Below, piece after piece: positions 19,984 through 36,233 of a DNA stretch of 36,233 bases. The stretch is from Ruminococcus sp. GTDB lineage: Bacteria > Bacillota > Clostridia > Oscillospirales > Ruminococcaceae. The notes under the pieces were generated by a model. The model was not told where the DNA came from. It saw only the letters and a program-made list of their open reading frames with translations, and did no database searches. The number at the start of each line of letters is the position of its first letter. The first letter of the stretch is position 1. The position numbers and the translations under genes are program-made. The stretch is from contig JAFXEJ010000070.1 of assembly GCA_017513795.1 (NCBI GenBank), positions 1 through 36,233 of the forward strand, written 5' to 3'.

Positions 19984-20002
19984 AATATTCACTCCTATTT
20001 TT

Positions 20003-20027
20003 TTCTGTCCGGAAGAAGCGGACAGAA
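20003..20027 (-). promoter_or_regulatory. 5' leader stem-loop of the GH26 mRNA
   Basis: On the - strand TTCTGTCCG and CGGACAGAA form a perfect 9-bp stem in the leader. It lies a few nucleotides upstream of the AGGAGTG ribosome binding site. It could protect the mRNA 5' end or modulate initiation; no ligand-type motif is recognised. Confidence 0.6.
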
Positions 20028-20046
20028 GCCTATTTTTCCATGTACT

Positions 20047-20075
20047 ATAATATCACACATTTCCGGAAAAATCAA
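20047..20075 (-). promoter_or_regulatory. Sigma-A-type promoter for the GH26 gene
   Basis: Read on the - strand, TTGATT (20075-20070), 17-nt spacer, TATTAT (20052-20047). Predicted leader of about 57 nt. Confidence 0.65.
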
Positions 20076-20144
20076 TAGTTTGTAACAAAAAATCCTTATT
20101 GATTTCATAATTTCGCAACATTTGAAAAGTTGATGCGGAATTTA

Positions 20145-20996
20145 TCATTTTCTGCTGTTCCTGAATGAGGAGATAAGAGCCATTATGAGGAAGAAAAGTC
20201 CGGCGAACAGGAATATTTCCGGAAGCTTTACAGGAGCATTCCGGCTGTTTTGCGGAGCAAATGCGGCGGCAGTTTCGGGATCTGCGGAGAAAGGAAACTC
20301 ATTTTCTGCTGCATATTTTTCAGCGGCGGAATCTGGACTTCCTGTGACAGAAAAGCCGGATATTTTCCCGTATTCGTTGTATCCGAGCGAATGTATCCCG
20401 ATATTTTCCACTGAATCGGGAATGTAGATCTCACCGGCTGAATTACATCCGTAGAAGGCAAGATCACCGATACTTTTCAGATTTCCGCTGAGGGATATGC
20501 CGGAAAGCGAACCGCATCCGGCAAAACAGAATTTCTGTATTTCGGTAACGTTCTGCGGCAGTATAATGCTTTTCAGCGAGGAACAGCCACGGAAGCATGA
20601 TTCCGGAAGAACGGCAAAATTTTCGGAAAGAGTTACTTCGCTAAGGGCAGAACATCCGTCAAAACAGCCCATTCCGATTTCGGCGGTACTGTCAGGAATG
20701 GCGATTTTTTCAAGGGAAGTGCATTCAAAAAAGCAGTGATGCCCCATTTTTTCAAGACTTTCCGGCAGCGTTATTTCTTTCAGGGAGGAGCATTTGTAAA
20801 AGGCGTTGTCACGGATTTCAGTGACAGGAGCACCTTCTAATTCCGGCGGAATGACAATGCTTTCCGGTTGTCCGGAAAATCCGGTTATGGTAGCTTCTCC
20901 GTTTATCACGGTATACTGAAGTTCCTGCGCATAAGCTGTAAATTCGGTAAAAAAGAGCATAAAAGCAATTATCGGGAATAATATTATTTTTTTCAT
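20145..20996 (-). CDS. BspA-like LRR protein, secreted and membrane-anchored
   Basis: ATG 20996 is preceded by AAGGAG with 6-nt spacing and starts a signal peptide (MKKIILFPIIAFMLFFTEFTAYAQ). The 283-residue product carries about seven LRR_5 repeats (pattern EITLPESLEKMGHHCFFECTSLEKI) between residues 45 and 225, a short linker, and a C-terminal hydrophobic helix (LFAGLFFLIMALISSF) followed by RNSRK, so the repeats face outward with a membrane stop anchor. Such proteins are thought to mediate binding to host or substrate surfaces; no catalytic domain is seen. A TATAAT lies at 21030-21025 on this strand without a clear -35. It is divergent from spoIIR. Confidence 0.88.
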   Translation of the reverse strand: MKKIILFPIIAFMLFFTEFTAYAQELQYTVINGEATITGFSGQPESIVIPPELEGAPVTEIRDNAFYKCSSLKEITLPESLEKMGHHCFFECTSLEKIAIPDSTAEIGMGCFDGCSALSEVTLSENFAVLPESCFRGCSSLKSIILPQNVTEIQKFCFAGCGSLSGISLSGNLKSIGDLAFYGCNSAGEIYIPDSVENIGIHSLGYNEYGKISGFSVTGSPDSAAEKYAAENEFPFSADPETAAAFAPQNSRNAPVKLPEIFLFAGLFFLIMALISSFRNSRK

Positions 20997-21013
20997 ATCG
21001 GTCTCCTTAAAAA

Positions 21014-21034
21014 GTAATATACATATTATATTAC
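21014..21034. promoter_or_regulatory. Inverted repeat in the LRR/spoIIR divergent intergenic region
   Basis: GTAATATA (21014-21021) and TATATTAC (21027-21034) are perfect reverse complements separated by CATAT. It overlaps the likely -10 of the LRR gene, so it could be an operator, but its AT-richness makes chance occurrence possible. Confidence 0.35.
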
Positions 21035-21114
21035 ATACCCTCTGCGGAATTTGTCGTAATCGGTAAGTGTATAATTCTGATAAATCTGCCAATTATATCT
21101 GCGAGGTGAAAGAA

Positions 21115-21723
21115 ATGAAAAAGTTCCATACATTAATATTGACAGCCGGATTTATACTTACGATAATTATTTCAAATTCTGTCGGATTCATAAAGGATGG
21201 CAGAAAGCTTGACCAGCTTAGGGAGAGCGTGCTTCGTCTGCACATACTTGCGGATTCTGACAGCGAGGAAGATCAGCGGCTTAAATTGTGCGTGCGTGAT
21301 GCACTGCTTGAACGGAGCGGAGAACTTTTCGGTGAAGCTGATGATCTTGAATCTGCGGAAGAAGCTGCACTTGAAGCATTGCCGGAAATTGTAGATATTG
21401 CGGAAAATACTCTCAGAGCACAGGGCTGTGATTCTCCTGTGAGGGCGTATCTTGCGGATATGGAATTCGATGAGCGTGTTTACGGAAATATCACAATGCC
21501 GGCTGGAAAATATCGTGCTCTGCGCATTGAGATAGGCGAGGCAAAGGGGCATAACTGGTGGTGCGTGATGTATCCGCCGCTGTGTATACCGGCGGCAGAG
21601 AAAGTTGAAAGCCGTAACGAAAAGGAATATTACGATGAAAAGGAACTTGATATTGTATATCGTCCTAAGAAATATCGTATAAAATTTGCTATATGGGATA
21701 AATTCAAGAAGCTATTCGACTGA
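21115..21723 (+). CDS. spoIIR: Stage II sporulation protein R (SpoIIR)
   Basis: ATG 21115 follows GAGGTG with good spacing. The 202-residue product has an N-terminal hydrophobic signal or anchor (LILTAGFILTIIISNSV), then the SpoIIR hallmarks LRLHILADSDSEEDQRLKL and, near the middle, GHNWWCVMYPPLC. In sporulating Firmicutes SpoIIR is made in the forespore under sigma-F and crosses into the intermembrane space to trigger SpoIIGA-dependent processing of pro-sigma-E. No other sporulation gene is present in this window. I could not find a convincing sigma-F promoter in the 118 nt upstream; a TATAAT at 21071-21076 has no good -35. Confidence 0.9.
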   Translation: MKKFHTLILTAGFILTIIISNSVGFIKDGRKLDQLRESVLRLHILADSDSEEDQRLKLCVRDALLERSGELFGEADDLESAEEAALEALPEIVDIAENTLRAQGCDSPVRAYLADMEFDERVYGNITMPAGKYRALRIEIGEAKGHNWWCVMYPPLCIPAAEKVESRNEKEYYDEKELDIVYRPKKYRIKFAIWDKFKKLFD

Positions 21724-21758
21724 TAAATTGTTAAATCCTACAAAAAGCAAAACGGCGC

Positions 21759-21787
21759 TTGACAAATTATACCGGACAGTGTATAAT
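21759..21787 (+). promoter_or_regulatory. Consensus sigma-A promoter for infC-rpmI-rplT
   Basis: TTGACA (21759-21764), 17-nt spacer, TATAAT (21782-21787): a perfect consensus in all 12 positions. This matches the high demand for ribosomal protein genes. Confidence 0.92.
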
Positions 21788-21794
21788 ATACAAG

Positions 21795-21932
21795 TAAACA
21801 AAGCAGAACTATGCGTTCTCACCGTCAGGCAAAGCTTAAACGGTCAATATGAAGTGACTTCGTGTATCTCAGGATAGCGGAGAATCAGTGAGTATTGTAT
21901 GAGTGCGGATAATTTCTGCACTCATTTTTGTT
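21795..21932 (+). promoter_or_regulatory. Structured infC leader, L20-type attenuator
   Basis: The roughly 165-nt leader between promoter and infC contains paired segments ACCGT/ACGGT and GAAGT/ACTTC, then a terminator hairpin. In Bacillus the infC-rpmI-rplT operon is attenuated by binding of L20 to its leader; the position and architecture here suggest the same control, but I cannot verify the L20-binding core by covariance. Confidence 0.6.
21900..21932 (+). terminator. Attenuator terminator in the infC leader
   Basis: TGAGTGCGG (21900-21908) pairs with CTGCACTCA (21916-21924), including one G-U pair, followed by TTTTTGTTT. It sits upstream of the coding region, so it must be conditional for the operon to be expressed. 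A second TGAGT at 21889-21893 could pair with the 3' arm and act as an antiterminator. Confidence 0.75.
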
Positions 21933-21961
21933 TCAATATACAAAGTTGGAGGTGCTTGACT

Positions 21962-22480
21962 ATTAGCAAACAGGAACTGCAGATCAATGAAGAGATAAGA
22001 GATAAAGAAATTCTCGTAATCGACAATGACGGAAAGAAGCTTGGAGTTTTATCTGCAAAAGAGGCGCAGCAGATCGCCTTTGATAAAGACCTTGATCTTG
22101 TAAAGATTGCTCCTCAGGCTACGCCGCCCGTATGCCGCATAATGGACTACGGCAAGTACTGTTTTGAGCAGGCTAAGCGTGAAAAGGAAGCAAAGAAGAA
22201 TCAGAAGGTCGTTTCAATCAAAGAAATCAGAATGTTCTCTACAATTGATACTCATGACTATGAAACAAAGGTAAATCAGGCTGTAAAGTTTCTCCAGGGC
22301 GGAGATAAGCTTAAAGTCTCGGTAAGATTCCGTAAGAGAGCTATCGCTCACCCACAGCTGGGAGAAGAGCTGCTCAATCGTTTCAAAGAGGCAGTTTCAG
22401 CAGTCGGCACTGTTGATAAGCCGGCGAAAATGGAAGGACGCAGCATCGTAATGTTCGTTTCACCCAAGGCCGGTAAGTAA
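21962..22480 (+). CDS. infC: Translation initiation factor IF-3, ATT start
   Basis: A strong GGAGGTG (21948-21954) is followed after 7 nt by ATT (21962), giving 172 residues starting (M)SKQELQINEEIR, the normal IF-3 N-terminus and length. A TTG at 21956 is too close to the ribosome binding site. An AUU start is the known hallmark of infC in several bacteria, where IF-3 itself rejects the codon and so limits its own synthesis. The N domain (INEEIRDKEILVIDNDGKKLG), linker, and C domain (KEIRMFSTIDTHDYETK, FLQGGDKLKVSVRFRKR) are complete. IF-3 binds the 30S subunit and enforces start-codon choice. First gene of infC-rpmI-rplT. Confidence 0.95.
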   Translation: MSKQELQINEEIRDKEILVIDNDGKKLGVLSAKEAQQIAFDKDLDLVKIAPQATPPVCRIMDYGKYCFEQAKREKEAKKNQKVVSIKEIRMFSTIDTHDYETKVNQAVKFLQGGDKLKVSVRFRKRAIAHPQLGEELLNRFKEAVSAVGTVDKPAKMEGRSIVMFVSPKAGK

Positions 22481-22492
22481 GGAGGATTTATA

Positions 22493-22696
22493 ATGGCAAA
22501 GGTTAAGGTTAAAACTCACTCAGGCGCTAAGAAGCGTTTTAAGATTACAGGAAACGGTAAGGTTAAGTATCAGCACACAAACAAGAGACACAGACTTACC
22601 CAGAAGGATACAAAGCGCAAGAGAATTGCTCGTAATGCAGGCGTTTGCGATCCAACAAATGCACCTACAGTAAAGAAGCTCGTTCCCTATATGTAA
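22493..22696 (+). CDS. rpmI: Ribosomal protein L35
   Basis: A 67-residue, highly basic protein with the L35 signature [20 protein letters not shown] and the motif [14 protein letters not shown]. It lies 12 nt behind infC with AAGGAGG as ribosome binding site. It is part of the 50S subunit, in the canonical infC-rpmI-rplT order. Confidence 0.98.
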
Positions 22697-22751
22697 TCTG
22701 TATCAGTTGTACTGATAGTTTTCGTAATTTTAATTTTGGAGGTATAAGACT

Positions 22752-23105
22752 ATGGCACGTATTAAAGGTGCAATGATGACTCGTAAGAGAAGAAATAAGA
22801 CTTTAAAGCTTGCTAAGGGCTATTTCGGCGCTAAGAGCAAGCACTTCAAGATGGCTAAACAGGCTGTAATGAAGTCCGGCAACTATGCATACATCGGAAG
22901 AAAGCAGAAGAAGAGACAGTTCAGACAGCTCTGGATCACAAGAATCTCCGCAGCTGCTAAGCTCAACGGCATGAACTACTCAACATTCATGAACGGCTGC
23001 AAGAAGGCTGGCATCACTCTCAACAGAAAGATGCTCTCCGAGATCGCTATCAACGACGCAGCAGGCTTTACAGCTATCGCTGACAAGGCTAAGGCAGCTC
23101 TTTAA
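22752..23105 (+). CDS. rplT: Ribosomal protein L20
   Basis: A 117-residue basic protein with [33 protein letters not shown] and [16 protein letters not shown], all typical of L20. TTGGAGGT provides the ribosome binding site. L20 binds 23S rRNA early in 50S assembly and in Bacillus also represses this operon by binding its leader. Last gene before a strong terminator. Confidence 0.98.
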
Positions 23106-23113
23106 TCCGACTA

Positions 23114-23151
23114 AAAACACGCTCTTTTTTACATAAACGAGCGTGTTTTCT
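23114..23151 (+). terminator. Intrinsic terminator of infC-rpmI-rplT
   Basis: AAAACACGCTC (23114-23124) pairs with GAGCGTGTTTT (23139-23149) around a 14-nt loop, 9 nt after the rplT stop. The 3' arm ends in TTTT. Confidence 0.85.
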
Positions 23152-23219
23152 TGTAATGTGTGATCCGGTTCTCATCGCTGAGATGCCGGACTGCGCATAT
23201 TCGGGAGGTGTCCGTACTA

Positions 23220-24002
23220 TTGGAAAACATTATAACATCTAAAGATAATCCTGTTATCAAGCTGTATCAGAAGCTCTCATCCTCGAAAAAGGAAAGACTT
23301 CAGTACGGCTTATTCGTGTTGGAGGGGCTCAGAATAGTTCAGGATGCGGTCAGTGAGGATTCCGGACTGTCGCACCTTATCTTCACAAAACAGGCTTACG
23401 ATAAATATGCAGATACTCTGTTTCAGGCTGATTTGAGAAATACAAGAATTATTGTCATTTCAAATGAACTTGGAAAGAAAATCGCTTCAACTGACAGCAC
23501 TCAGGGAATATTCGCAATCTGCCGCATGATGACCGGAAAAGCTCCGGTATTCAGCGAAAATGGACGGTATATTGTTCTTCACTGTCTTCAGGATCCGGGA
23601 AATCTCGGCATGATAATCAGGACAGCGGACGCTCTCGGCGTTGACGGGATATTCCTTTGCGGATGCTGCGATCTTTACAGCCCTAAGGTAATACGCTCAA
23701 CTATGGGCTCAGTATTCAGGGCGGAAATATATATCGAAAACGACGAGGAGAAGCTCTTTGCGCTCCTTGAGGAAAACGGCGTTTCAACGTCTGCTGCGGT
23801 GATAGATACAGACGCTCTGCCGCTGACGGAATGCTCCTTTGAAGGAAGTCATGCCGTATTTATAGGAAATGAGGGGAATGGTCTGCCGGCCGAGGTATCT
23901 CATCGCTGCGGCAGACGTGTGACTATTCCCATGAACGGAAATATAAATTCACTCAATGCCGCAATGGCAGCCGGAATTATAATGTGGGAGCTTAAAAAAT
24001 AA
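23220..24002 (+). CDS. TrmH/SpoU-family RNA 2'-O-methyltransferase
   Basis: TTG 23220 is the probable start because GGGAGGTG (23203-23210) precedes it by 9 nt; the upstream frame to 23160 lacks any site and lies at the end of the terminator. The 260-residue product has an N-terminal substrate-binding region (ITSKDNPVIKLYQKLSSSKK, LFVLEGLRIVQDA) and the SPOUT knot domain with motifs LQDPGNLGMIIRTADALG, STMGSVFRAEIY and FIGNEGNGLPAEV ... PMNGNINSLNAAMAAGI. The enzyme uses AdoMet to methylate a ribose 2'-OH, most likely in 23S rRNA; the exact site cannot be told from sequence. It is followed by dprA after 12 nt. Confidence 0.92.
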   Translation: MENIITSKDNPVIKLYQKLSSSKKERLQYGLFVLEGLRIVQDAVSEDSGLSHLIFTKQAYDKYADTLFQADLRNTRIIVISNELGKKIASTDSTQGIFAICRMMTGKAPVFSENGRYIVLHCLQDPGNLGMIIRTADALGVDGIFLCGCCDLYSPKVIRSTMGSVFRAEIYIENDEEKLFALLEENGVSTSAAVIDTDALPLTECSFEGSHAVFIGNEGNGLPAEVSHRCGRRVTIPMNGNINSLNAAMAAGIIMWELKK

Positions 24003-24014
24003 GGGGGGATATCT

Positions 24015-25307
24015 GTGGATGATACAAAATACTGGGTATGGCTTACTATGGTTTTCGGCGTAGGAAGCCGCAGAATATGGGATACCGTGAATATCTACGG
24101 CGACGCTGAGGATACTTATACTGCGCTTATTTCAGGCGGAAACGGTCTTTCTGTAACTCAGGCTGAAAAGCGTAATATCGACAGCATATCGCTTGAACAG
24201 GCTCAGAGCTATATTGAACGCTGCGCCTCCAAGGGAATAGGTGTTGCTGGTTACAGCAGCAGAGAATATCCTCCGCAGCTGAGAAATATTTTCAATCCGC
24301 CGGCAGTTCTCCATTATAAGGGAAATATCGCCTGCCTTACAGGTACAAGAACCATTACAGCTGTCGGAACAAGAACACCTTCCGCCTATGGCGCAGACGC
24401 CGCATACAAGATATGCCGTCAGCTTGCGTCAGAGGGATTTGTAATAGTCAGCGGATTCGCAGTCGGAACTGATATCGCAGCGCACATGGCAGCTGCTGAC
24501 TGCCGCCGTCCTACTGCCTGCATTCTCGGATGCGGTCTTGATGTGAATTATCCCAAGCCGAATATGAGATTCCGTGAGAAGATTCTTGAAAACGGCGGTG
24601 TATTTGTATCGGAGTATCCTCCGGGAACTGAACCGCATTTTTCCAATTTTCCGAAAAGAAACAGGATACTTGCCGCACTGGGAAGACTTTCGCTCGTATT
24701 TGAAGCCTCTATAAAGAGCGGTTCGCTTATTACTGCTAATATGGCAGCTGATTACGGCAGAGATGTTTTTGTACTTCCGCCGGCAGATATATTCGGGAAC
24801 GCTTTTTCCGGAAATATTGCACTTCTCCGTGACGGTGCACAGCCGCTTTACGGTACAAGCGAGGTCATAGACTGTTTTAGTATCGGCGGCACCATAGATG
24901 CTGAGATTCGTGCTGACCGTTATTCCGGCATGGGAAATATCAGAATGTCATCATCTGGTTATGATGATGAAGATTCATCCATAGATATGGTAAAGGAAAC
25001 AGCAAAAAGCGTCAGAAGAAGGAATAAGGCGGAAAAGCCGGAAGTGACGCAGAATAAGGAAGTAAATATTAACGAAGAAAAACAGACACAGGAAGAAAAA
25101 GAGGAAGCTCCAGCTGTTATCGCAGATTTGCCGCTTACTGATATACAGCGTCAGATATGTCAGGCTCTTGCCGCAGAAAAGCTTCATATAGAAGTTCTTG
25201 CAGCACAGCTTGAAATTGATTCGGCTGAGCTCATGACGGAAATGACGGAGCTTGAAATTCTCGGATTAGTCCGTCAGCTTCCGGGAAAATCTTTTGAATT
25301 ATCATAG
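24015..25307 (+). CDS. dprA: DNA-processing protein DprA
   Basis: GTG 24015 is preceded by GGGGGG. The 430-residue protein has an N-terminal helical part, the DprA Rossmann domain with ITAVGTRTPSAYG, VIVSGFAVGTDIAAH, CILGCGLDVNYPKPN, SEYPPGTEPHFSNFPKRNR and EASIKSGSLITANMAADYGRDVF, and a C-terminal winged helix (LTDIQRQICQALAAEKLHIE). Between them lies a Lys/Glu-rich unstructured stretch of about 60 residues (around 310-372), which makes it longer than many DprA proteins. DprA loads RecA onto incoming single-stranded DNA during transformation. It lies in the usual Firmicutes dprA-topA-trmFO order. Confidence 0.95.
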   Translation: MDDTKYWVWLTMVFGVGSRRIWDTVNIYGDAEDTYTALISGGNGLSVTQAEKRNIDSISLEQAQSYIERCASKGIGVAGYSSREYPPQLRNIFNPPAVLHYKGNIACLTGTRTITAVGTRTPSAYGADAAYKICRQLASEGFVIVSGFAVGTDIAAHMAAADCRRPTACILGCGLDVNYPKPNMRFREKILENGGVFVSEYPPGTEPHFSNFPKRNRILAALGRLSLVFEASIKSGSLITANMAADYGRDVFVLPPADIFGNAFSGNIALLRDGAQPLYGTSEVIDCFSIGGTIDAEIRADRYSGMGNIRMSSSGYDDEDSSIDMVKETAKSVRRRNKAEKPEVTQNKEVNINEEKQTQEEKEEAPAVIADLPLTDIQRQICQALAAEKLHIEVLAAQLEIDSAELMTEMTELEILGLVRQLPGKSFELS

Positions 25308-25310
25308 AAA

Positions 25311-25336
25311 TTCTGCACAGTAATGCTGGTGCAGAA
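25311..25336 (+). other. Stem-loop in the dprA-topA spacer
   Basis: TTCTGCAC (25311-25318) and GTGCAGAA (25329-25336) form a perfect 8-bp stem 3 nt after the dprA stop. There is no T-tract, so it may be an mRNA-stabilising or partial-termination element. Confidence 0.55.
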
Positions 25337-25358
25337 CATTTTAAGGGGATAGATGTAA

Positions 25359-27440
25359 ATGTCGGATCTGGTTATAGTAGAGTCGCCTGCAAAGGCTAAA
25401 ACAATACAGAAATATCTCGGACAGGGATATGAAGTCATTGCGTCCATGGGACATATAAGGGATCTTCCCAAGTCAAAGATGGGCGTTGACAAGGAGAACG
25501 ATTTCAAGCCTCAGTATACAGATATGAAGGGCAAGGAAGACGTTATCAAGGAACTTAAAAAACGTGCCCGCAAATGCGATAAAGTCTATCTCGCAACCGA
25601 CCCTGATCGTGAGGGAGAGGCTATTTCATGGCATATAGCACAGCTGCTCAAGCTTGATATGAACGATAACAACCGTGTTGCGTTCAATGAGATCACCAAA
25701 TCAGGCGTTAAAAAGGGAATGAGCAATCCGCATAAGATAGATGTTGATCTTGTAAATGCACAGCAGGCAAGACGTATTCTTGACAGACTTGTAGGTTATG
25801 AGCTTAGTCCTTTTCTCTGGAAAAAGGTCAAGAGAGGACTTTCCGCCGGCAGAGTTCAGTCTGTTGCGGTAAAGCTTGTTGTTGACAGGGAAAATGAAAT
25901 CAGAAAATTCGTACCCAAGGAATACTGGTCAGTGGATGCCAAATTCATAGCTCCGTCGTCCAGAAAGATATTCGATGCTTCACTCGTTACCGTTGACGGG
26001 AAAAAGCCGGAGCTTTCGGCTCAGTCAGAGGCTGACAGTGTTCTTGCAAGACTTGAAAATGCTGTTTATACGGTAAGCTCCGTGAAAAAAAGAGTTACCA
26101 AAAAACAGCCGGCACCGCCGTTCATCACATCCACGCTCCAGCAGGATGCTTCAAGACGTCTGAGCTTCACAGCAAAGCGTACAATGAAAGCTGCTCAGGA
26201 ACTTTATGAAGGTGTTGACGTTCAGGGTGTAGGTGCTGTTGGTCTTATCACATACATGAGAACTGACAGTCTGCGTATTTCGGACGAAGCAAAGGCAGCT
26301 GCCGCTGAATATATCGGTACAGTATACGGCAAGGAGTATCTCCCGCCGGAGCCGAGAAATTACAAATCAAAGAACAACGCTCAGGATGCCCACGAAGCTA
26401 TACGTCCGTCAACGCCGGAGCTTACTCCTGACAGAGTAAAATCCAGCCTTACATCGGATCAGTTCAAGCTTTACAAGCTTATCTGGGAAAGATTTATCGC
26501 AAGCCAGATGGCGAATGCGCTTCTTGATACGGTATCCGCTGATATCGAAGCAAACGGCTGTATTTTCAGAGCGTCCGGATATTCCGTTAAATTCGACGGA
26601 TTTATGGCTCTTTATGTTGATACATCGAGCGAGGAGGAATCCGGAAAGAAAATGCTTCCTGAGCTTGCTAAGGACGACAAGGTAAAGCTCAAATCCATCA
26701 CAGGAAATCAGCATTTCACACAGCCGCCTCCGAGATATACAGAAGCTTCTCTTATCAAGGCTTTGGAGGAAAACGGTATAGGCCGTCCGAGTACTTATGC
26801 TCCGACTATCACAACGATCACAACAAGACAGTATGTTGAGCATGAAGGAAAGGCTCTCAAACCGACAAATCTTGGTGAAGCCATCACTCAGCTCATGACA
26901 GAGCACTTCAAGAAGATAGTTGACGCTAAATTTACTGCTCAGATGGAAAGTGATCTTGACGAGGTAGAGCAGGGCAACAAGAACTGGGTAAGCGCTCTGC
27001 ATGAATTTTACGATGAATTTGAAGTTACGCTGAGAAATGCTGAAGAAGCAATGGACGGCAAGCGTATAAAGGTTCCCGATGAGGTCACAGATGTTGTCTG
27101 CGAGCTCTGCGGAAAAAACATGGTTATCAAGTACAGCCGTTTCGGAAAATTCCTTGCCTGTCCCGGATTTCCCGACTGCAAAAACGCAAAGCAGATCGTT
27201 ACGGAGGCAGACGGAAGCTGTCCGAGATGCGGCAAAAAGATATTGCTGAAAAAATCAAAGAAGGGCAGAAGCTTCTACGGATGCGAGGGCTATCCGGACT
27301 GCAATTTCATGACATGGAATCTGCCTACAAAGGAAGTATGTCCTCAGTGCGGCAAGACGCTGTTCAATAAGGGCGGAAAATCAGGCCGTCTTTTATGCGA
27401 AAATGAGGGCTGCGGCTACGAAAGAGAGCTTTCAAAATGA
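25359..27440 (+). CDS. topA: DNA topoisomerase I
   Basis: ATG 25359 follows AAGGGG. The 693-residue type IA topoisomerase carries the TOPRIM start VIVESPAKAKTIQKYLG, the acidic metal site DPDREGEAI, the active-site Tyr299 in GLITYMRTDS, and the C-terminal signature IGRPSTYAPTITTI. Three zinc-ribbon units lie at the end (about residues 582-693), starting with CELCGK, CPRCGK and CPQCGK. It relaxes negative supercoils. The stop overlaps the trmFO start in an ATGA arrangement, so the two are translationally coupled. Confidence 0.98.
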   Translation: MSDLVIVESPAKAKTIQKYLGQGYEVIASMGHIRDLPKSKMGVDKENDFKPQYTDMKGKEDVIKELKKRARKCDKVYLATDPDREGEAISWHIAQLLKLDMNDNNRVAFNEITKSGVKKGMSNPHKIDVDLVNAQQARRILDRLVGYELSPFLWKKVKRGLSAGRVQSVAVKLVVDRENEIRKFVPKEYWSVDAKFIAPSSRKIFDASLVTVDGKKPELSAQSEADSVLARLENAVYTVSSVKKRVTKKQPAPPFITSTLQQDASRRLSFTAKRTMKAAQELYEGVDVQGVGAVGLITYMRTDSLRISDEAKAAAAEYIGTVYGKEYLPPEPRNYKSKNNAQDAHEAIRPSTPELTPDRVKSSLTSDQFKLYKLIWERFIASQMANALLDTVSADIEANGCIFRASGYSVKFDGFMALYVDTSSEEESGKKMLPELAKDDKVKLKSITGNQHFTQPPPRYTEASLIKALEENGIGRPSTYAPTITTITTRQYVEHEGKALKPTNLGEAITQLMTEHFKKIVDAKFTAQMESDLDEVEQGNKNWVSALHEFYDEFEVTLRNAEEAMDGKRIKVPDEVTDVVCELCGKNMVIKYSRFGKFLACPGFPDCKNAKQIVTEADGSCPRCGKKILLKKSKKGRSFYGCEGYPDCNFMTWNLPTKEVCPQCGKTLFNKGGKSGRLLCENEGCGYERELSK

Positions 27441-28765
27441 CTGAAATAGTAAATGTTATCGGTGCCGGACTGGCAGGCTGTGAAGCGGCATGGCAGCTGG
27501 CACAGGCAGGAATAAACGTAAGGCTTTACGAAATGAAGCCGGAAAAGTATTCTCCTGCTCATAAATACAGCGGATTTGCAGAGCTTGTCTGCTCAAATTC
27601 GCTTAAAGCGGCAAGAATAGAATCAGCAGCCGGACTTCTTAAATATGAAATGGAAATGCTCGGTTCGCTGACAGTTCCGTGCGCAAAGGAAAATTCTGTT
27701 GAAGCCGGCGGTGCGCTTGCTGTTGACAGAGAGAAATTCTCTGACAGCGTAACGGAAAAAATCAGAAATCATCCGCTTATCGAGGTGGTATACGGCGAAG
27801 TTACAGAACTTCCGGCTGGAAAATGCATTATCGCTACAGGACCTCTCACATCGGACGGAATGGCTGATATAATAAAGGAACTCTGCGGCGAAGGACTCAG
27901 CTTTTACGATGCTGCTGCGCCTATCGTCACATACGAAAGCCTTGACAAGGATCGTGTTTTCTTTGCGTCACGCTACGACAGGGGCGAGGCAGATTATGTC
28001 AACTGCCCTATGGAAAAGGACGAATATCTGGCTTTTTATGAGGCTCTCACCGGTGCGGAAAGAGTTCAGCTGAAGGATTTTGAAACACATCCGTTCAGCG
28101 TTTATGAGGGTTGTATGCCTATCGAGGAGCTTGCCCGCAGAGGTGTTGATACAATGCGTTTCGGACCTATGAAACCGGTAGGAATTACCGACGCAAGAAC
28201 GGGCAGACGTCCCTATGCGGTAGTTCAGCTTCGCCGTGAAAATCGTGAGGGTACGCTTTTCAATCTTGTGGGATTCCAGACAAATCTGAAATTCGGCGAG
28301 CAGAAGCGTGTTTTCTCAATGATTCCCGGACTTGAAAACGCTGAATTCATGCGGTACGGCGTTATGCACAGAAATACATTCATCAACAGTCCTCAGCTTC
28401 TGAACAGTGATTTCTCCATGAGAGAAAGACCGGATATCTGGTTTGCCGGACAGATCACAGGCGTTGAGGGATATATGGAATCGGCTGCAAGCGGTATTAT
28501 CGCCGGAATTTCTGCCGTAAGAAAAATAAAGGGACTCGAGCCGATAAAGCTTCCGATCGACACAATGACGGGAGCACTCAGCGCATATATAAGCGATCCC
28601 TACAATACCGGAAAGTTCCAGCCTATGGGCGCAAATATGGGAATTCTTCCGGATATCGGCGTAAGAATAAAGGATAAAAAGGAAAAATACGGAGTATACG
28701 CACAGCGTGCAGTTGAATCGCTGAAAAAGGAAATGGAGAGAGTGGGCTATGAAAGTAATTGTTGA
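27437..28765 (+). CDS. trmFO: Methylenetetrahydrofolate-tRNA-(uracil-5-)-methyltransferase TrmFO
   Basis: The 442-residue flavoprotein starts with the FAD-binding VIGAGLAGCEAAWQLA and YEMKPEKYSPAH, then shows FAELVCSNSLKA, NSVEAGGALAVDRE and, near the C-terminus, FAGQITGVEGYMESAASGIIAG. It forms 5-methyluridine at position 54 of tRNA with methylenetetrahydrofolate and FADH2. It overlaps topA by 4 nt and plsX by 17 nt. Confidence 0.97.
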   Translation: MTEIVNVIGAGLAGCEAAWQLAQAGINVRLYEMKPEKYSPAHKYSGFAELVCSNSLKAARIESAAGLLKYEMEMLGSLTVPCAKENSVEAGGALAVDREKFSDSVTEKIRNHPLIEVVYGEVTELPAGKCIIATGPLTSDGMADIIKELCGEGLSFYDAAAPIVTYESLDKDRVFFASRYDRGEADYVNCPMEKDEYLAFYEALTGAERVQLKDFETHPFSVYEGCMPIEELARRGVDTMRFGPMKPVGITDARTGRRPYAVVQLRRENREGTLFNLVGFQTNLKFGEQKRVFSMIPGLENAEFMRYGVMHRNTFINSPQLLNSDFSMRERPDIWFAGQITGVEGYMESAASGIIAGISAVRKIKGLEPIKLPIDTMTGALSAYISDPYNTGKFQPMGANMGILPDIGVRIKDKKEKYGVYAQRAVESLKKEMERVGYESNC

Positions 28766-29744
28766 CGCTTTCGGAGGAGATAACGCTCCTCTTGAGGTCA
28801 TAAAGGGATGCGCAGAAGCTGTTTCCGGACTTGGAGTTGAAATCCTCCTTACCGGAAGTGAAAGCGTTATAAAAAAATGTGCCGCAGATAACGGCATAAG
28901 CCTGAATGGCATGGAAATCGCCCACACTGACGAGGTATTTGATATACACGACGAGCCGAATGAAATAATCAAGTCGAAGAAGAATACATCTCTCGGACTC
29001 GGACTTCAGCTTCTTGCCGAGGGTAAAGGCGATGCGTTCGTATGCGCCGGAAGTACAGGTGCTCTTGTAATGGGAGCAACTTTTATAGTAAAGCGTATAA
29101 AGGGTATCAAGAGAATTGCGCCGTCACCGGTACTTCCCGGAGACAAGGGCAGCTTTATTCTCCTTGACGCCGGAGCAAATACAGAATGCCGTCCGGAAAT
29201 GCTCGTGCAGTTTGCCGTTATGGGAAGCGCATATGCTGAAAAGGTGCTCGGATATAAGAATCCCTAAGTTGCGCTTCTGAACATCGGTGCTGAGGAAACA
29301 AAAGGCCGAGAGCTTGAAATAGAATCCTATAAGCAGCTCAGTGAATCAGGACTGAATTTCGTTGGAAACATTGAAGCAAGAGATCTTCCCAATGGCGAGG
29401 TTCAGGTAGTGGTAACTGACGGTTTTACGGGAAATATAGCACTTAAACTCTATGAGGGACTTGGTTCGTTCTTCAGCCATAAGATAAAGTGGATATTCTC
29501 AGGAATCGGCAAGGTCGGAGCACTTTTTTCTCTCGGAAAGATAAAGGCATTCCGCCGTCAGATGGACTATAAACAGGTCGGAGGTTCAGCTTTGTTAGGC
29601 GTAAAGAAACCTGTTATCAAGGCACATGGAAGCTCTGATGCAACTGCCTTCTACAATGCAGTAAGACAGGCAAAGAAGTGTGTTGAAGCAAATGTTACCG
29701 GAGAAATAGAAAGCTATGTTGCGGCTGCCTCCGGAAAGGAATGA
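28749..29744 (+). pseudogene. plsX: plsX (phosphate acyltransferase) interrupted by an in-frame TAA
   Basis: The frame runs from ATG 28749 through 172 codons to a TAA at 29265-29267 and then continues in the same frame, without insertion or deletion, to TGA at 29742-29744. Ignoring that codon gives a normal 331-position PlsX: MKVIVDAFGGDNAP, LDAGANTE, YKNP[stop]VALLNIGAEETKG, VTDGFTGNIALK, and the usual C-terminus. At the stop, PlsX proteins normally have Lys or Arg, so AAA to TAA is a one-base explanation. PlsX makes acyl-phosphate from acyl-ACP for phospholipid synthesis and is usually essential in Firmicutes. The options are a sequencing or assembly error, a true nonsense mutation (strain variant), or suppression. 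The gene overlaps trmFO, and its stop overlaps the rnc region. No acpP gene lies between plsX and rnc. Confidence 0.92.
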
Positions 29745-29749
29745 TTATA

Positions 29750-30439
29750 ATGGATAATATCGCAAAATTTGAAGAAATAATCGGATATACCTTTAAGAAT
29801 AAACAGCTTATCCATCAGGCACTTTCTCATTCATCGTACTCAAACGAAAGAAAGAATCCTAACGGAAGCAATGAACGCCTTGAATTTCTCGGCGACAGCG
29901 TGCTTTCTATCGTGGTATCCGACTTTCTGTATAAGAATCTCAATGTGGCAGAGGGACAGCTCACAAAGATAAGAGCATCACTCGTATGTGAAAAATCGCT
30001 TCATGTCTTTGCAAAGAAGATATCGCTCGGAGATTTTCTTCTTCTCGGCAAGGGCGAGGAAAATACAGGAGGACGTCAGCGTCCGTCGATACTTGCGGAT
30101 GCATTTGAAGCCGTTATAGCAGCAATATACCTTGACGGCGGAATGGAAGCTGCTGCAAAGCATATACTGCGCTTCATACCGGAGGATGTTCACCATACAG
30201 GTCATCCGGTATTCAGCGATTTCAAGACAATTCTTCAGGAAGTAGTACAGAAGAATCCGGAGGAAAAGGTTGAATACGTTCTCATCGGCGAGGAAGGTCC
30301 TGACCACAACAAGCGTTTTGTGGTGGAGGTATGCCTTAATTCCCAGATGATCGGCAGAGGAAGCGGCAGAAGCAAAAAGGAAGCCGAACAGCTTGCCGCC
30401 AAGGAAGCTCTGGAGCTTATGGGCTATGAAACACAGTAA
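29750..30439 (+). CDS. rnc: Ribonuclease III
   Basis: ATG 29750 is preferred to ATG 29741 because GGAAAGGA ends right before 29741 and fits 29750 with 9-nt spacing. The 229-residue protein has the catalytic signature ERLEFLGDSVLSIVVSD, the second acidic motif DAFEAVIAAIYLDGG, and a C-terminal double-stranded RNA-binding domain (DFKTILQEVVQ ... GRGSGRSKKEAEQLAAKEAL). It cleaves double-stranded RNA in rRNA processing and mRNA decay. The following radical SAM gene starts inside its 3' end (14-nt overlap). Confidence 0.97.
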   Translation: MDNIAKFEEIIGYTFKNKQLIHQALSHSSYSNERKNPNGSNERLEFLGDSVLSIVVSDFLYKNLNVAEGQLTKIRASLVCEKSLHVFAKKISLGDFLLLGKGEENTGGRQRPSILADAFEAVIAAIYLDGGMEAAAKHILRFIPEDVHHTGHPVFSDFKTILQEVVQKNPEEKVEYVLIGEEGPDHNKRFVVEVCLNSQMIGRGSGRSKKEAEQLAAKEALELMGYETQ

Positions 30440-31424
30440 TATTTCAATTTTTATCCCTCATATCGGATGTCCGCATCAGTGCAGCTTTTGCAATCAGCGG
30501 ACTATCAGCGGAGCACAGCATGCTCCGTCCGGCGATGAGGTACGACAGATATGCACGTCTGCTTTAGCAGAAGCAAAATCGCCGGAAAACAGTGAAATTG
30601 CATTTTTCGGCGGAAGCTTCACAGCTATTCCCCGTGAATATATGACGGAGCTGCTTGAAGCTGTACAGCCATTTATCGGCGTGGGAAAATTCCGTGGAAT
30701 ACGGATATCCACACGTCCGGACTGTATCAACAACGAGGTGCTGTCGCTGTTGAAAACTTACGGAGTAACATCAATTGAGCTTGGTGCGCAGTCCATGAGC
30801 GATAAGGTTCTTGAAGCCAACGAGCGTGGACATTCGGCGGCAGATGTAGAAAAAGCCAGCCGCCTTATCCGTGAATACGGCTTTGAACTCGGCTTGCAGA
30901 TGATGGTCGGACTTTACAAAAGCGACATGGCTGACGAGTTTGAAACTCTTGACAGAATTATAGCAGTTCATCCAGATACAGTGCGTATCTATCCCATTGT
31001 CATACTTGAAGGAACGAAGCTTGCTGAGTTTTACAAATCGGGGAAATACAGAACATTTTCCTTCGACGAGGCAACAGAATTTGTTTCAATTGCAATGATG
31101 CGTTTTGAGCATGAGAGCATAAAAGTAATAAAATGCGGACTTCATGCCTCTGAATTCGTAGAGCGTGACATGGTCGGCGGATTTTATCATCCTGCTTTCC
31201 GTGAACTCTGCGAGGGAATCATCTACCGCTGGAAAATGGAGGAACTTATTGGCTATGAAACTGAAAGCAGATTTGATTTCGTTTTTTCGGTGAATCCATC
31301 ATGTATAAGCAAGGCAATGGGGCATAAAAAAGCAAATGCAGAATATTTCGGAAAGTCCGGAATAACGATAAAAATAATCGGGGATAAAAATATTCCAAAA
31401 TACAAAGTTAAGCTGAGGAGGTGA
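30426..31424 (+). CDS. Radical SAM protein with C-terminal Radical_SAM_C domain
   Basis: ATG 30426 lies 10 nt after GGAG within rnc. The 332-residue protein has the radical SAM cluster motif CPHQCSFC (Cys15, Cys19, Cys22), GGSFTAIP, ISTRPDCI, IELGAQSM and GLQMMVGLY, as in the ELP3-related/YhcC-like bacterial group with a Radical_SAM_C region. It would bind a 4Fe-4S cluster and cleave S-adenosylmethionine. The same gene sits between rnc and smc in many clostridia; its substrate is not established, and a tRNA or RNA-modification role is only an inference from related Elp3 proteins. Confidence 0.9.
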   Translation: MKHSNISIFIPHIGCPHQCSFCNQRTISGAQHAPSGDEVRQICTSALAEAKSPENSEIAFFGGSFTAIPREYMTELLEAVQPFIGVGKFRGIRISTRPDCINNEVLSLLKTYGVTSIELGAQSMSDKVLEANERGHSAADVEKASRLIREYGFELGLQMMVGLYKSDMADEFETLDRIIAVHPDTVRIYPIVILEGTKLAEFYKSGKYRTFSFDEATEFVSIAMMRFEHESIKVIKCGLHASEFVERDMVGGFYHPAFRELCEGIIYRWKMEELIGYETESRFDFVFSVNPSCISKAMGHKKANAEYFGKSGITIKIIGDKNIPKYKVKLRR

Positions 31425-31428
31425 AGAA

Positions 31429-34400
31429 ATGTATCTGAAATCACTTGAAATACAGGGCTTTAAGTCCTTTCCGGACAAGATAAGCCTGACCTTTGACAAG
31501 GGACTTACAGCTGTAGTAGGTCCTAACGGCAGCGGAAAAAGTAATATCGGCGACTCGGTGAGGTGGGTTCTCGGAGAGCAGTCTACCAAGACGCTGAGAG
31601 GAAATAAAATGGAGGACGTTATTTTTTCCGGTACCGTTGCAAGAAAACCCATGGGATTTGCAGCTGTTACGCTTAATATCGACAATTCCGACAAGACATT
31701 TCCTGATATGGATGACGAGGTTGCTGTCACGAGAAAGCTCTACAGAAGCGGCGACAGCGAGTATATGATAAACGGAAAATCGTGCCGTCTTAAAGATATA
31801 AACGAGCTTTTCATGGATACAGGTCTTGGTCGTGACGGATATTCAATCATTGGTCAGGGACGTATCGCTGAGATTGTCGGTGCAAAAAGCAACGAGCGCC
31901 GTGATATCTTTGAGGAAGCGGCGGGAATCTCGAAATTCCGCTACAAAAAGCTTGAAGCTGAACGAAAGCTTACATCGGCACAGGAAAATCTTGTGAGACT
32001 GACGGATATACTTTCGGAGCTTGAAGGCAGAGTTGAGCCGCTGCGTATCCAGTCGGAAAAGGCAGCGAAATTCATAAAGCTTGCAGAGCAGAGAAAAACG
32101 CTGGAAATTTCCGTCTGGGTGAATCGTCTTGACGAGCTTAAAGGCAAGCTTGAAGCTCTTGATGAAAAGATACTTGTAAGCAGAAATGAGTATGAAAATA
32201 TCGAAAACGATATCCGCCGTGAGGAGGAGAAAATCAGCGAAGGCTACGCACGGATGCAGGAAAGCACTGTAAAATCCGATGAACTCCGTCAGAAAATGAT
32301 CGAGGAGGAACAGGAAGCGTCCGGCATGAAATCCGGTATAGCCGTTTTCGAGAACGATATAAAGCACTGCGAGGAAGCAATTGAAGCCGCACGTCGGAGT
32401 ATCGGAAATTCCGAGAAAAACAGACAGTCTCTGCTTGATGGAAAGAAATCTGCTGAAAGTAAAATTTCTGAGCTTACAGATGAACTCGGAAAGCTTGAAA
32501 AGGAAATCGCAGAAGCTGAAAAGTCTCTTGCCGGTGCAGAAGCAGAAAGCTCCAGACTCGGTGAAAACGTCGATAAGGCTGGAAGCGAGATAAATGGTCT
32601 CTACATAAAGCAGAGTGAATACCGTTTTGCTGTTGAATCAGCTAAAAATGCGATCAGAGAAGAAAATTCCCGACTTGAGGAAATAAGCGAGGGAAATACA
32701 GATTTCAGCAGAAAGCTGGAGGAGCATCGTCAGCGTCTTTCTGAGGCTGAAAAGGATAAGGAAAAAAATTCTGCCGCAAATCAGGAACTGAAAAACAAAC
32801 TCAGCGGACTGGAAATGCTCTATAAATCAAGGAAAAACGGATTTGAACAGGCAAAGGCGGAATTTGAAAAGGCTCTTTATGAGCTTAAAGACCGCCAGCA
32901 GAGAAGAAAGATTCTGACTGATCTTGAAAATAATATGGAAGGCTTTGCCGGAAGCGTAAAGCTTGTGCTGAAAGCCGGAAAACAGGGAAGAATCAGTGGT
33001 GTTCTTGGAACAGTTGCGCAGAATATCGGTGTAAAGCCAGAGTATGCTGTAGCTGTGGAAACGGCTCTTGGCGGCGCAATGCAGAACATCATCGTTGAGA
33101 ATGAGGATATTGCGAAACGCTGTATCCGCTTCCTGAAAGAACAGCGTGGAGGACGTGCTACATTTCTTCCGCTGACGTCAGTGAACGGCCGTGAGCTTGA
33201 TGAAAAAGGACTTGAGGAATGCAGCGGATTTGTAAGCATTGCAAGCCGGATAATCGAAGCGGATGAGAAGTTCAGCGGAATAATCAGTTCGCTTCTTGGA
33301 AGGATAGCTATTGCCGAGGATATTGATTCGGCTGCGGTTATCGCCAAAAAATACGGCTATAAATTCAGAATCGTCACACTTGACGGTCAGGTTGTAAATG
33401 CCGGAGGATCATTCACCGGCGGTTCGGCGCAGAAATCGGGCGGTATCATCACACGAAAGAACGAGCTTGATACGCTTGATGCTGAAATAGAGAAACTTAC
33501 AGCGCAGCGTGATTCTCTCCGTGATAAGGCTGAAAAGCTTCGTGCGGAATCAGAAAAGCACCGTTACAATACAGAAGCGGTCAGAGAAGAACTTTCACAG
33601 AACGAGAATGAAGCTGTCCGTATAAATGCAGAAATATCGGGCTTGAATTCTCTTATTGAACAGATGAATGCGCAGTCGGAGAATTCTGAAAAGCTTGCAG
33701 AGGACGCAAGACAGAAAATCGCCGCATGTGAAAAAAATATTGCAGACGCTGAAAAAGCGCTTCTTGAAACAGAGGAGCAGATACGTCTTGCAGAGGAAAA
33801 GCTTGCTGAGGGACAGGGCGTCCGTGAGGAACTTCGTCTTAAAAGAGGAAAGCTTTCGGAAAGACTTTCACAGCTGAAAATTCAGGGGATAGAGCTTTCC
33901 GGCAGTATAAGGAATCTTGAATCCGAGGTCGGAAGATATGACGAAAGTCTTGACGCTCTCAGCCGTGACAGCAAGGATGCTGAGGATGAAATAAATCGTC
34001 AGAAGGATATCATAGCACATAAGCAGATAGATATCGAAAAGCTGAGAACACGTCTTGCCGGTTTCAAGGATAATACTGCGGCATATCAGGAGCAGATTCA
34101 GCGTTATCAGGATATGCATACTGAGCAGAATCGTCTTGTAAACGAAATGACAAAGGGACTGAAACAGTTCAATGAAGCTAAGGAAAAGCTTTCCGGCGAG
34201 ATAACACGTCTTGAAGAACGCCGTGAAGCCATCTGCCGTGACAACGACTACATTATAAAGCAGCTTCTTGAGGTCTATGAGCTGACACGCTCCGAAGCTG
34301 TTGCGCTTGCTGAAAAGATAGAGGATATCTCAAAGGCGCAGAGAGAGCTTACAGAGGTCAAAAACAAGATTCGTGCTCTTGGAAATGTAAACGTTGAAGC

Positions 34401-35001
34401 AATTGAGGAATACAAGGAAGTATCGGAGAGATATCAGTTCCTTTCAGCACAGATAGCAGATGTCCAGAGGTCAAAGGCTGAGCTTGAAAAGATAATCAGC
34501 GGACTTACAGAAGAAATGTGCAGGATATTCTCCGAGAGCTTTGTGATAATAAATTCAAATTTCAAGGAAATATTCGTTGAGCTTTTCGGCGGAGGAAAGG
34601 CAGAGCTTATCCTCACAGATCCGGAAAATGTTCTTGAATCCGGAATTGAAATCAGCGTTGCGCCGCCCGGAAAGGTTATCAAGAATCTTATTTCGCTTTC
34701 AGGCGGAGAGCAGTCGTTTGTGGCGATAGCTATCTATTTTGCGATACTAAAACTTCGTCCGGCACCGTTCTGTATACTGGACGAGATCGACGCCGCACTT
34801 GACGAGGTAAATGTCCGCAAATACGCACAGTATCTCAAAAAGTTTACTGATACAACACAGTTCGTTCTTGTAACTCACAGACGAAGCGCAATGGAGGAGG
34901 CGAATGTGCTTTACGGAGTTACCATGCAAGAGGACGGAATATCAAAGCTTCTGAAAATGGAACAGGTAGATTTTCAGGAGGATACAGCCTCTGTAGAATG
35001 A
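31429..35001 (+). CDS. smc: Chromosome segregation ATPase SMC
   Basis: ATG 31429 follows GGAGGTG. The 1190-residue protein has an N-terminal Walker A (GPNGSGKSNI, 31-40), a long heptad-rich coiled coil, a hinge (about 521-660, from GRISGVLGTVAQ to GGSFTGGSAQ), a second coiled coil, and a C-terminal ABC signature LSGGEQ (about 1090) and Walker B FCILDEIDAALD (about 1115). The length is typical. With ScpA/ScpB (not in this window) it compacts and organises the chromosome. It is followed by ftsY after 45 nt, as in many Firmicutes. Confidence 0.98.
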   Translation: MYLKSLEIQGFKSFPDKISLTFDKGLTAVVGPNGSGKSNIGDSVRWVLGEQSTKTLRGNKMEDVIFSGTVARKPMGFAAVTLNIDNSDKTFPDMDDEVAVTRKLYRSGDSEYMINGKSCRLKDINELFMDTGLGRDGYSIIGQGRIAEIVGAKSNERRDIFEEAAGISKFRYKKLEAERKLTSAQENLVRLTDILSELEGRVEPLRIQSEKAAKFIKLAEQRKTLEISVWVNRLDELKGKLEALDEKILVSRNEYENIENDIRREEEKISEGYARMQESTVKSDELRQKMIEEEQEASGMKSGIAVFENDIKHCEEAIEAARRSIGNSEKNRQSLLDGKKSAESKISELTDELGKLEKEIAEAEKSLAGAEAESSRLGENVDKAGSEINGLYIKQSEYRFAVESAKNAIREENSRLEEISEGNTDFSRKLEEHRQRLSEAEKDKEKNSAANQELKNKLSGLEMLYKSRKNGFEQAKAEFEKALYELKDRQQRRKILTDLENNMEGFAGSVKLVLKAGKQGRISGVLGTVAQNIGVKPEYAVAVETALGGAMQNIIVENEDIAKRCIRFLKEQRGGRATFLPLTSVNGRELDEKGLEECSGFVSIASRIIEADEKFSGIISSLLGRIAIAEDIDSAAVIAKKYGYKFRIVTLDGQVVNAGGSFTGGSAQKSGGIITRKNELDTLDAEIEKLTAQRDSLRDKAEKLRAESEKHRYNTEAVREELSQNENEAVRINAEISGLNSLIEQMNAQSENSEKLAEDARQKIAACEKNIADAEKALLETEEQIRLAEEKLAEGQGVREELRLKRGKLSERLSQLKIQGIELSGSIRNLESEVGRYDESLDALSRDSKDAEDEINRQKDIIAHKQIDIEKLRTRLAGFKDNTAAYQEQIQRYQDMHTEQNRLVNEMTKGLKQFNEAKEKLSGEITRLEERREAICRDNDYIIKQLLEVYELTRSEAVALAEKIEDISKAQRELTEVKNKIRALGNVNVEAIEEYKEVSERYQFLSAQIADVQRSKAELEKIISGLTEEMCRIFSESFVIINSNFKEIFVELFGGGKAELILTDPENVLESGIEISVAPPGKVIKNLISLSGGEQSFVAIAIYFAILKLRPAPFCILDEIDAALDEVNVRKYAQYLKKFTDTTQFVLVTHRRSAMEEANVLYGVTMQEDGISKLLKMEQVDFQEDTASVE

Positions 35002-35016
35002 TTTCTGATGATTCAC

Positions 35017-35031
35017 GCCGCATAATGCGGC
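35017..35031 (+). other. Small hairpin upstream of the ftsY ribosome binding site
   Basis: GCCGCA (35017-35022) and TGCGGC (35026-35031) form a 6-bp stem with a 3-nt loop, 5 nt before the GGGAG (35037-35041) of ftsY. It could affect initiation or processing of the smc-ftsY mRNA. Confidence 0.5.
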
Positions 35032-35046
35032 AGATTGGGAGTATTT

Positions 35047-36233
35047 ATGGGAATTATAGCAAAAATTGCAGCTGGTCTCAGAAAGACCAAGGCGAGCTTT
35101 CTTGGCAGACTTAAAAGAATTTTCAATTCCTTCACAAAGATAGATGAGGAGCTTTTTGAAGAACTTGAAGAAGCTATGATAATGAGCGATATCGGCGTTG
35201 AAACATCGCTTGAAATATGCGACAGGCTCCGTAAAAAGATCAAGGAGAGAGGAATCACCGATCCCAATGAGATAATGGAGCTTATTCAGGAGGTAATCGG
35301 CGAGATTATGGGTGATGATACAGGTCTTGATCTCACACAGTCTCCAGCAGTTATCATGGTAATCGGCGTAAACGGCGCCGGAAAGACAACCACAATAGGA
35401 AAGCTCTGTCACCAGTTCAAGAAGGAAAAGAAAAAGGTTCTTGTTGCGGCAGCGGATACTTTCCGTGCAGCCGCTATAGATCAGCTTGAGGTATGGACTG
35501 AGCGTGCCGGCGTAGATATCGTGAAGCACGCCGAGGGTTCTGATCCGGGAGCTGTAGTTTATGACGCTCTTGAAGCGGCAAAGGCAAGAGATTGCGATGT
35601 TGTTATAATCGACACAGCCGGACGTCTTCACAATAAGAAGAATCTTATGGATGAGCTTGCGAAGATCAACAGAATTATTGATAACAAGGCAGGAGAATGC
35701 TCTCGTGAGGTGCTTCTTGTCCTTGATGCAACTACAGGTCAGAATGCCGTAAATCAGGCAAAGCTGTTCAGTGAGACTGCTCCTATCACCGGAATTGTCC
35801 TTACAAAGCTTGACGGAACAGCTAAGGGCGGAATTGTAATTTCAATAAAGAATGAGCTTGGAATTCCTGTAAAGCTTATCGGTGTCGGCGAGAAAATCGA
35901 CGATTTACAGCCGTTTGACAGCCGTACATTTGTCGAGGCGCTGTTCAGTGATACTGATTTTGACTCTGAGGATGAAGACGAGGACGATATCATTTCTGAT
36001 GAAGAATCCGAGGATACTGAGGAATTCGAGGAAAATGAGGAAATCGCTGAGGAAACTGAGGAAATCGAGGAAGTCGAGGAAACTGAGGAAACTGAGGAAT
36101 CTGAGGAAGTCGAAGAAATCGAGGAAATCGAGGAATCTGAGGAAATCGCAGAGGAAGAAGTTGTTGAAGAAGCTGATGAGGAATCCTATGATGAGGAAGA
36201 ATCTGATGACGATGACGACGACGATGATAACGA
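35047..36233 (+). CDS. ftsY: Signal recognition particle receptor FtsY with acidic C-terminal tail (3' partial)
   Basis: ATG 35047 follows GGGAG (35037-35041). The frame stays open to the window end (395 codons). The NG core occupies about residues 1-300: a short N domain (DEELFEELEEAMIMSDIG), P-loop VNGAGKTTTIGKL, DTFRAAAIDQL, DTAGRL and TKLDGTAKGG, ending with FVEALF. Normal FtsY ends here. This protein continues with at least 95 residues rich in Glu/Asp (repeats of E-E-x such as EETEEIEEVEETEETEE) and a final run of Asp. Conversely, the usual N-terminal acidic A domain is absent, the N domain starting almost at the first residue. FtsY is the membrane docking GTPase for SRP-ribosome complexes. 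Confidence 0.95.
   Translation, partial: MGIIAKIAAGLRKTKASFLGRLKRIFNSFTKIDEELFEELEEAMIMSDIGVETSLEICDRLRKKIKERGITDPNEIMELIQEVIGEIMGDDTGLDLTQSPAVIMVIGVNGAGKTTTIGKLCHQFKKEKKKVLVAAADTFRAAAIDQLEVWTERAGVDIVKHAEGSDPGAVVYDALEAAKARDCDVVIIDTAGRLHNKKNLMDELAKINRIIDNKAGECSREVLLVLDATTGQNAVNQAKLFSETAPITGIVLTKLDGTAKGGIVISIKNELGIPVKLIGVGEKIDDLQPFDSRTFVEALFSDTDFDSEDEDEDDIISDEESEDTEEFEENEEIAEETEEIEEVEETEETEESEEVEEIEEIEESEEIAEEEVVEEADEESYDEEESDDDDDDDDN
36024..36150 (+). repeat. Imperfect 9-bp coding repeat (GAG GAA xxx) in the ftsY tail
   Basis: The codon pair GAG-GAA recurs roughly every three codons, each followed by a variable codon (ATC, ACT, GTC, TCT or TTC). The regular period suggests slippage-type expansion and possible length variation. 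Confidence 0.8.

Follow-up and report, generated by a model that had tools for sequence, protein, structure and literature searches.

Gene organization of the plsX locus

The analysed stretch of DNA, termed the window, comprises 36,233 nucleotides and constitutes one contig (C64) of a Ruminococcus draft genome that is 96% complete and spans 2,555,290 bases over 163 contigs. Around the investigated site the gene order is infC, rplT, an rRNA-methyltransferase-like gene, dprA, topA, trmFO, plsX, rnc, a radical-SAM-like gene and smc. The rRNA-methyltransferase-like gene scored under the cut-off of the corresponding model, the radical-SAM-like gene under all cut-offs shown. The features at the site are:

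27437..28765, plus strand: trmFO, uninterrupted, overlapping the start of plsX (TIGR00137 above cut-off)
28749..29744, plus strand: plsX (acyl-ACP:phosphate acyltransferase) with one interruption (PF02504 in both halves)
28749..29264, plus strand: N-terminal part of plsX, 172 codons (PF02504 positions 1-174 of 324)
29265..29267, plus strand: in-frame TAA, codon 173 of plsX (sense codon at 110 of 110 other loci)
29268..29741, plus strand: C-terminal part of plsX, 158 codons (PF02504 positions 176-322 of 324)
29741..30439, plus strand: rnc (RNase III), uninterrupted, overlapping the end of plsX (TIGR02191 above cut-off)

The TAA at 29265-29267 shares its frame with the start codon ATG (28749) and with the terminal TGA (29742-29744). 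Matching the whole frame, including the TAA, to the PlsX profile PF02504 yielded 307.1 bits (cut-off 29.1) over positions 1-322 of 324, and the two halves reached E-values of 3.9e-45 (positions 1-174) and 1.4e-39 (positions 176-322). Hence, with respect to PlsX membership, a full-profile match above the curated cut-off was found, an uninterrupted frame was not. The N-terminal part aligned with residues 1-171 of 6a1k_A, a phosphate acyltransferase of solved structure. With the PlsX family (PF02504; solved relatives 6a1k, 1vi1 and 1u7n) the gene shares the full-length family match and the near-invariant residues of both halves, while the single TAA at codon 173 sets it apart from known PlsX. A preliminary description of this DNA, which had proposed a plsX split by one in-frame stop, was thus confirmed. 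It had also noticed no compensating duplicate, and indeed the whole-genome profile search gave a single PF02504 match, with the limitation that in a 96% complete assembly a second copy could sit in the missing part.

Within the window no Rfam match at gathering score was obtained for an RNA element. A phage origin of plsX was considered and dismissed, as megablast returned no matches in the phage collection. Among the best 80 relatives of this plsX, Ruminococcus assemblies predominated, many of them of ruminant origin. The gene order around plsX was the same in the contig of the sister species. Comparing window positions 20001-36200 with this contig (G056 C5), similarity changed in blocks, ranging from some 65% to 100% per 150-base segment. 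From the alignment, these changes, one of them inside plsX near 29450, suggest recombination between species. At the left end of the window (12-1304) a gene of the leucine-rich repeat (BspA) type was observed, the first part of which matched the sister contig in many registers.

Codon 173 in related genomes

A plsX match was found in 121 of 125 genomes of the genus, and an in-frame stop in only one of the 121, the genome of the window. Order-wide, 241 of 255 genomes had a plsX match, and no in-frame stop was seen among the matches listed, which did not comprise that of the window itself. Codon 173 was compared for 111 loci and encoded lysine in 91, arginine in 9, threonine in 5, serine and alanine in 2 each, glutamate in 1 and a stop in 1, again that of the window's genome. 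Using the 87 distinct proteins of the 110 other loci, the corresponding numbers were 71 for lysine, 6 for arginine, 5 for threonine, 2 each for serine and alanine and 1 for glutamate. The alignment with relatives that had been proposed as a check therefore showed a sense codon at every other locus. Lysine or arginine, as expected earlier for this position, is the usual residue (100 of 110 other loci), although threonine, serine, alanine and glutamate also occur.

The nearest relative, the sister G056 with 96% protein identity, carries a lysine codon at position 173 which differs from TAA at two positions. A lysine codon only one position away from TAA was found at 34 of 111 loci. Around the codon, the difference from the nearest relative is also readable as an unchanged run of a few bases displaced by one position. 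From the letters, this can be read as the pattern that two small insertion or deletion errors would leave. Breaks of plsX were observed in other drafts of the genus. In G019 the gene was present in two pieces and two frames on one contig, while in G103 and G112 it was found in pieces on two contigs each. All three look like technical or assembly breaks.

Conservation of plsX on both sides of the stop

At 132 positions, 73 of them ahead of the stop and 59 behind it, 98% or more of the 87 distinct proteins agree, and the window departs from them at none. When identical proteins were kept in, one of 154 near-invariant positions was changed, residue 27, which lies before the stop. Behind the stop, residue 196 is Gln in the window, while Leu or Met were found in 108 of 109 relatives and Gln in one. 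Compared to the nearest relative, dN/dS was 0.10 after and 0.018 before the stop, with 9.5 and 6 non-synonymous differences, respectively. The value of 0.10 mostly reflects low synonymous divergence after about 29450, where within plsX a stretch of high similarity to the sister starts. Relaxed selection after the stop, which this value would have indicated, was not seen against two outgroups, with dN/dS values after the stop of 0.040 and 0.036 for the window and 0.059 and 0.052 for the sister, all at a synonymous divergence above 1 and thus near saturation. Judged from these comparisons, plsX has not visibly decayed behind the stop, and little trace of such a process is apparent. An assembly join at the stop was also considered. 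It was rejected, since the similarity shifts near 29450 and not at 29265, and comparable shifts recur along the contig. We read the shift within plsX as probable ordinary recombination.

Interior stops elsewhere in the genome

The survey of interior stops set the window and another 316,000 bases of its genome (16 stretches) against 366,960 bases of the sister (22 stretches). A total of 257 sister ORFs, the longest non-overlapping ones of at least 150 codons, served as queries, and matches required an identity of at least 70%. Stops were counted in the best alignment only, leaving aside its first 25 and last 15 columns. Under these conditions 53 sister ORFs (24,471 codons) were matched in the window's genome, and one of the 53, plsX, contained an interior stop. 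With the direction reversed, 55 of 258 ORFs were matched, 2 of them with interior stops in the sister. Higher stop counts of 9/67 and 14/77 from an earlier ORF set were discarded, because many of those queries were overlapping or antisense frames. Possible frame breaks were flagged once for the repeat gene at the left end of the window and twice for a single ORF of L157. For the ABC ATPases, a family with many members, 50 matches were obtained, one of which, at 40.5 bits, had stops inside. As the sampled genes were free of other interior stops, the assembly is not generally error-rich.

Translation of the stop or a split enzyme

If the stop were translated by a suppressor tRNA, by recoding or by leaky readthrough, full-length PlsX would be formed, and the near-invariant residues kept in both halves are what is expected for a protein that is still made. 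We consider this very unlikely. Of all stop codons TAA is used most often in the window, ending 12 of its 20 other genes, a count which leaves out plsX and the overlapping ORF 1240-2088 (no Pfam match, also ending in TAA). The genome search gave 36 tRNA matches, to 35 of which ARAGORN assigned an anticodon. None of these 35, an incomplete set in which Ile and Phe tRNAs were not found, reads a stop, so that the suppressor tRNA to be looked for according to the preliminary description did not turn up in it. Moreover, the relatives examined have no stop at this site, and the other sampled genes are without interior stops. Even less probable, in our view close to negligible, are two separately made halves acting together as a split enzyme. 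The halves do divide the PF02504 profile almost without loss. However, a usual start codon is missing at the split, the first in-frame ATG, GTG or TTG past the stop being the GTG at 29409, 47 codons downstream (ORF 29409-29744). Furthermore, none of the other genomes among the 121 has an interior stop, G019, G103 and G112 break elsewhere in the profile, and a division within one catalytic domain would be an unlikely working arrangement.

A promoter or terminator at the split was rejected, since no such site was predicted there. Predictions for 28700-29800 gave a single promoter-like site, against 1.5 in shuffles, and three sites resembling terminators, which exceeds chance as judged by the shuffles (mean 0.9, sd 0.9). 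None of them is at the split. On the plus strand the terminator-like sites are at 29060-29078 and 29506-29518. The 36th of the tRNA matches, a weak Rfam match of 63 bases and 34.9 bits (L155:451-513, minus strand; contig C68 of the window's genome, G000), lacks the anticodon loop and was not called by ARAGORN. It may be an element resembling a tRNA or have matched by chance.

Bypass genes and genomes without plsX

The gene had been called essential in the preliminary description. This is overstated, since plsX-deleted Firmicutes can survive by the FakAB-PlsY route, the families of which are present in the genome. As given in excerpts of the published work, plsX-deleted Enterococcus faecalis and Staphylococcus aureus need fatty acids, Streptococcus pneumoniae grows without plsX as a thioesterase frees fatty acids, and FakAB together with PlsY carry the bypass (PMC10449490, PMC13245860, PMC12288450). 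Rescue of plsX deletions was described there for both exogenous and internally released fatty acids (PMC10449490, PMC13245860). On the basis of the gene content, loss of plsX would not necessarily be lethal here.

Two uninterrupted matches to PlsY were found in the window's genome. A FakA-like ORF of the YloV family (552 aa) scored above the YloV cut-off and below the FakA equivalog cut-off, and two DegV/FakB-like proteins were both under the FakB1 cut-off. A single match to the acyltransferase family PF01553 was obtained, with an open frame of 215 codons, a size which we take to fit PlsC rather than PlsB. With this family profile, the search for a plsB elsewhere in the genome, proposed earlier, thus identified none, and PlsB was rejected as a stand-in for PlsX. 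The bypass families PlsY, FakA-like and FakB-like are those known from the laboratory plsX deletions in E. faecalis and S. aureus, as far as excerpts of these reports show (PMC10449490, PMC13245860). We are aware of the fact that those deletions are clean and growth-tested, whereas the evidence in the window is one codon of an assembly at draft stage, known from sequence only. In titles and abstract openings of the papers listed for plsX and pseudogenes, no natural plsX loss was described.

The order search left 14 of 255 genomes without a plsX match. Seven of the 14 were at least 90% complete, with a Dak2/FakA domain in 5 of 7 and PlsY in 4 of 7. One genus contributed four genomes to the 14, with a completeness of 92 to 98%, and a repeated search of this genus again gave plsX in none of the four. 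In these genomes, from four species (G141, G163, G225, G238), the Dak2/FakA domain was present throughout (4 of 4), and PlsY was found in 3 of 4. By its gene content this genus is possibly a natural plsX-less lineage which uses the FakAB-PlsY route. The search results suggest that loss of plsX is possible within the order. For two genomes, G291 and G360, both 99% complete, searches at E 0.001 gave neither PlsX nor PlsY nor Dak2/FakA.

Origin of the in-frame stop

The stop is isolated among the sequences examined, there is little decay behind it, and no sign of stop reading came from the terminators of the window or from the incomplete tRNA set, which leaves a consensus error or a very recent mutation. 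A base-call error, a recent mutation and suppression had been named in the preliminary description as the possible causes. This was the right set, of which suppression (as well as recoding) is disfavoured by the data. We favour a consensus error as the best fit and place a very recent mutation second. The data cannot separate the two, as a very recent true mutation would leave the same pattern. Most probably, the TAA stems from a miscalled base or from a consensus taken from minority reads, within a plsX that is otherwise an ordinary housekeeping gene in single copy. If so, living cells would carry a normal plsX. The draft nature of the assembly with its 163 contigs and the technical-looking plsX breaks in other drafts of the genus speak for an error. 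Against it stand the sampled genes with no further interior stop, the two positions that separate TAA from the codon of the nearest relative, the dN/dS of 0.10 after the stop compared to this relative, and the Gln at residue 196.

A real and very recent nonsense mutation, which would leave plsX dead or nearly so and PlsY fed from free fatty acids by a FakA/FakB-type kinase, is clearly less likely, yet has to be taken into account. For it speak the genes found in the genome, i.e. PlsY twice, the YloV-family FakA-like ORF, the two DegV/FakB-like proteins and the PF01553 acyltransferase, together with the other genus of the order in which plsX is missing (0 of 4) and Dak2/FakA (4 of 4) and PlsY (3 of 4) are found. 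Excerpts of published work also describe rescue of plsX deletions by fatty acids, but report for S. aureus and E. faecalis that cells without plsX need such fatty acids or suppressors (PMC10449490, PMC13245860). Conserved residues past the stop are kept, and the FakA-like and DegV proteins are below the FakA equivalog and FakB1 cut-offs, respectively, all of which argues against this reading. Overall, we infer as the cause an error and not a nonsense mutation of very recent date. A gut Ruminococcus lineage that is losing plsX and lives on fatty acids, imported or freed inside and phosphorylated by a FakAB-type kinase, appears improbable from the present evidence.

If the TAA is an error, it is only a warning for annotation. 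If such a plsX loss were true, it would be an early snapshot of a state that the plsX-less genus of the order has seemingly reached. A real mutation would suggest that in wild gut bacteria, too, the FakAB-PlsY bypass of the laboratory deletions works, and for testing this bypass in nature the plsX-less genus is a better place than the genome of the window.
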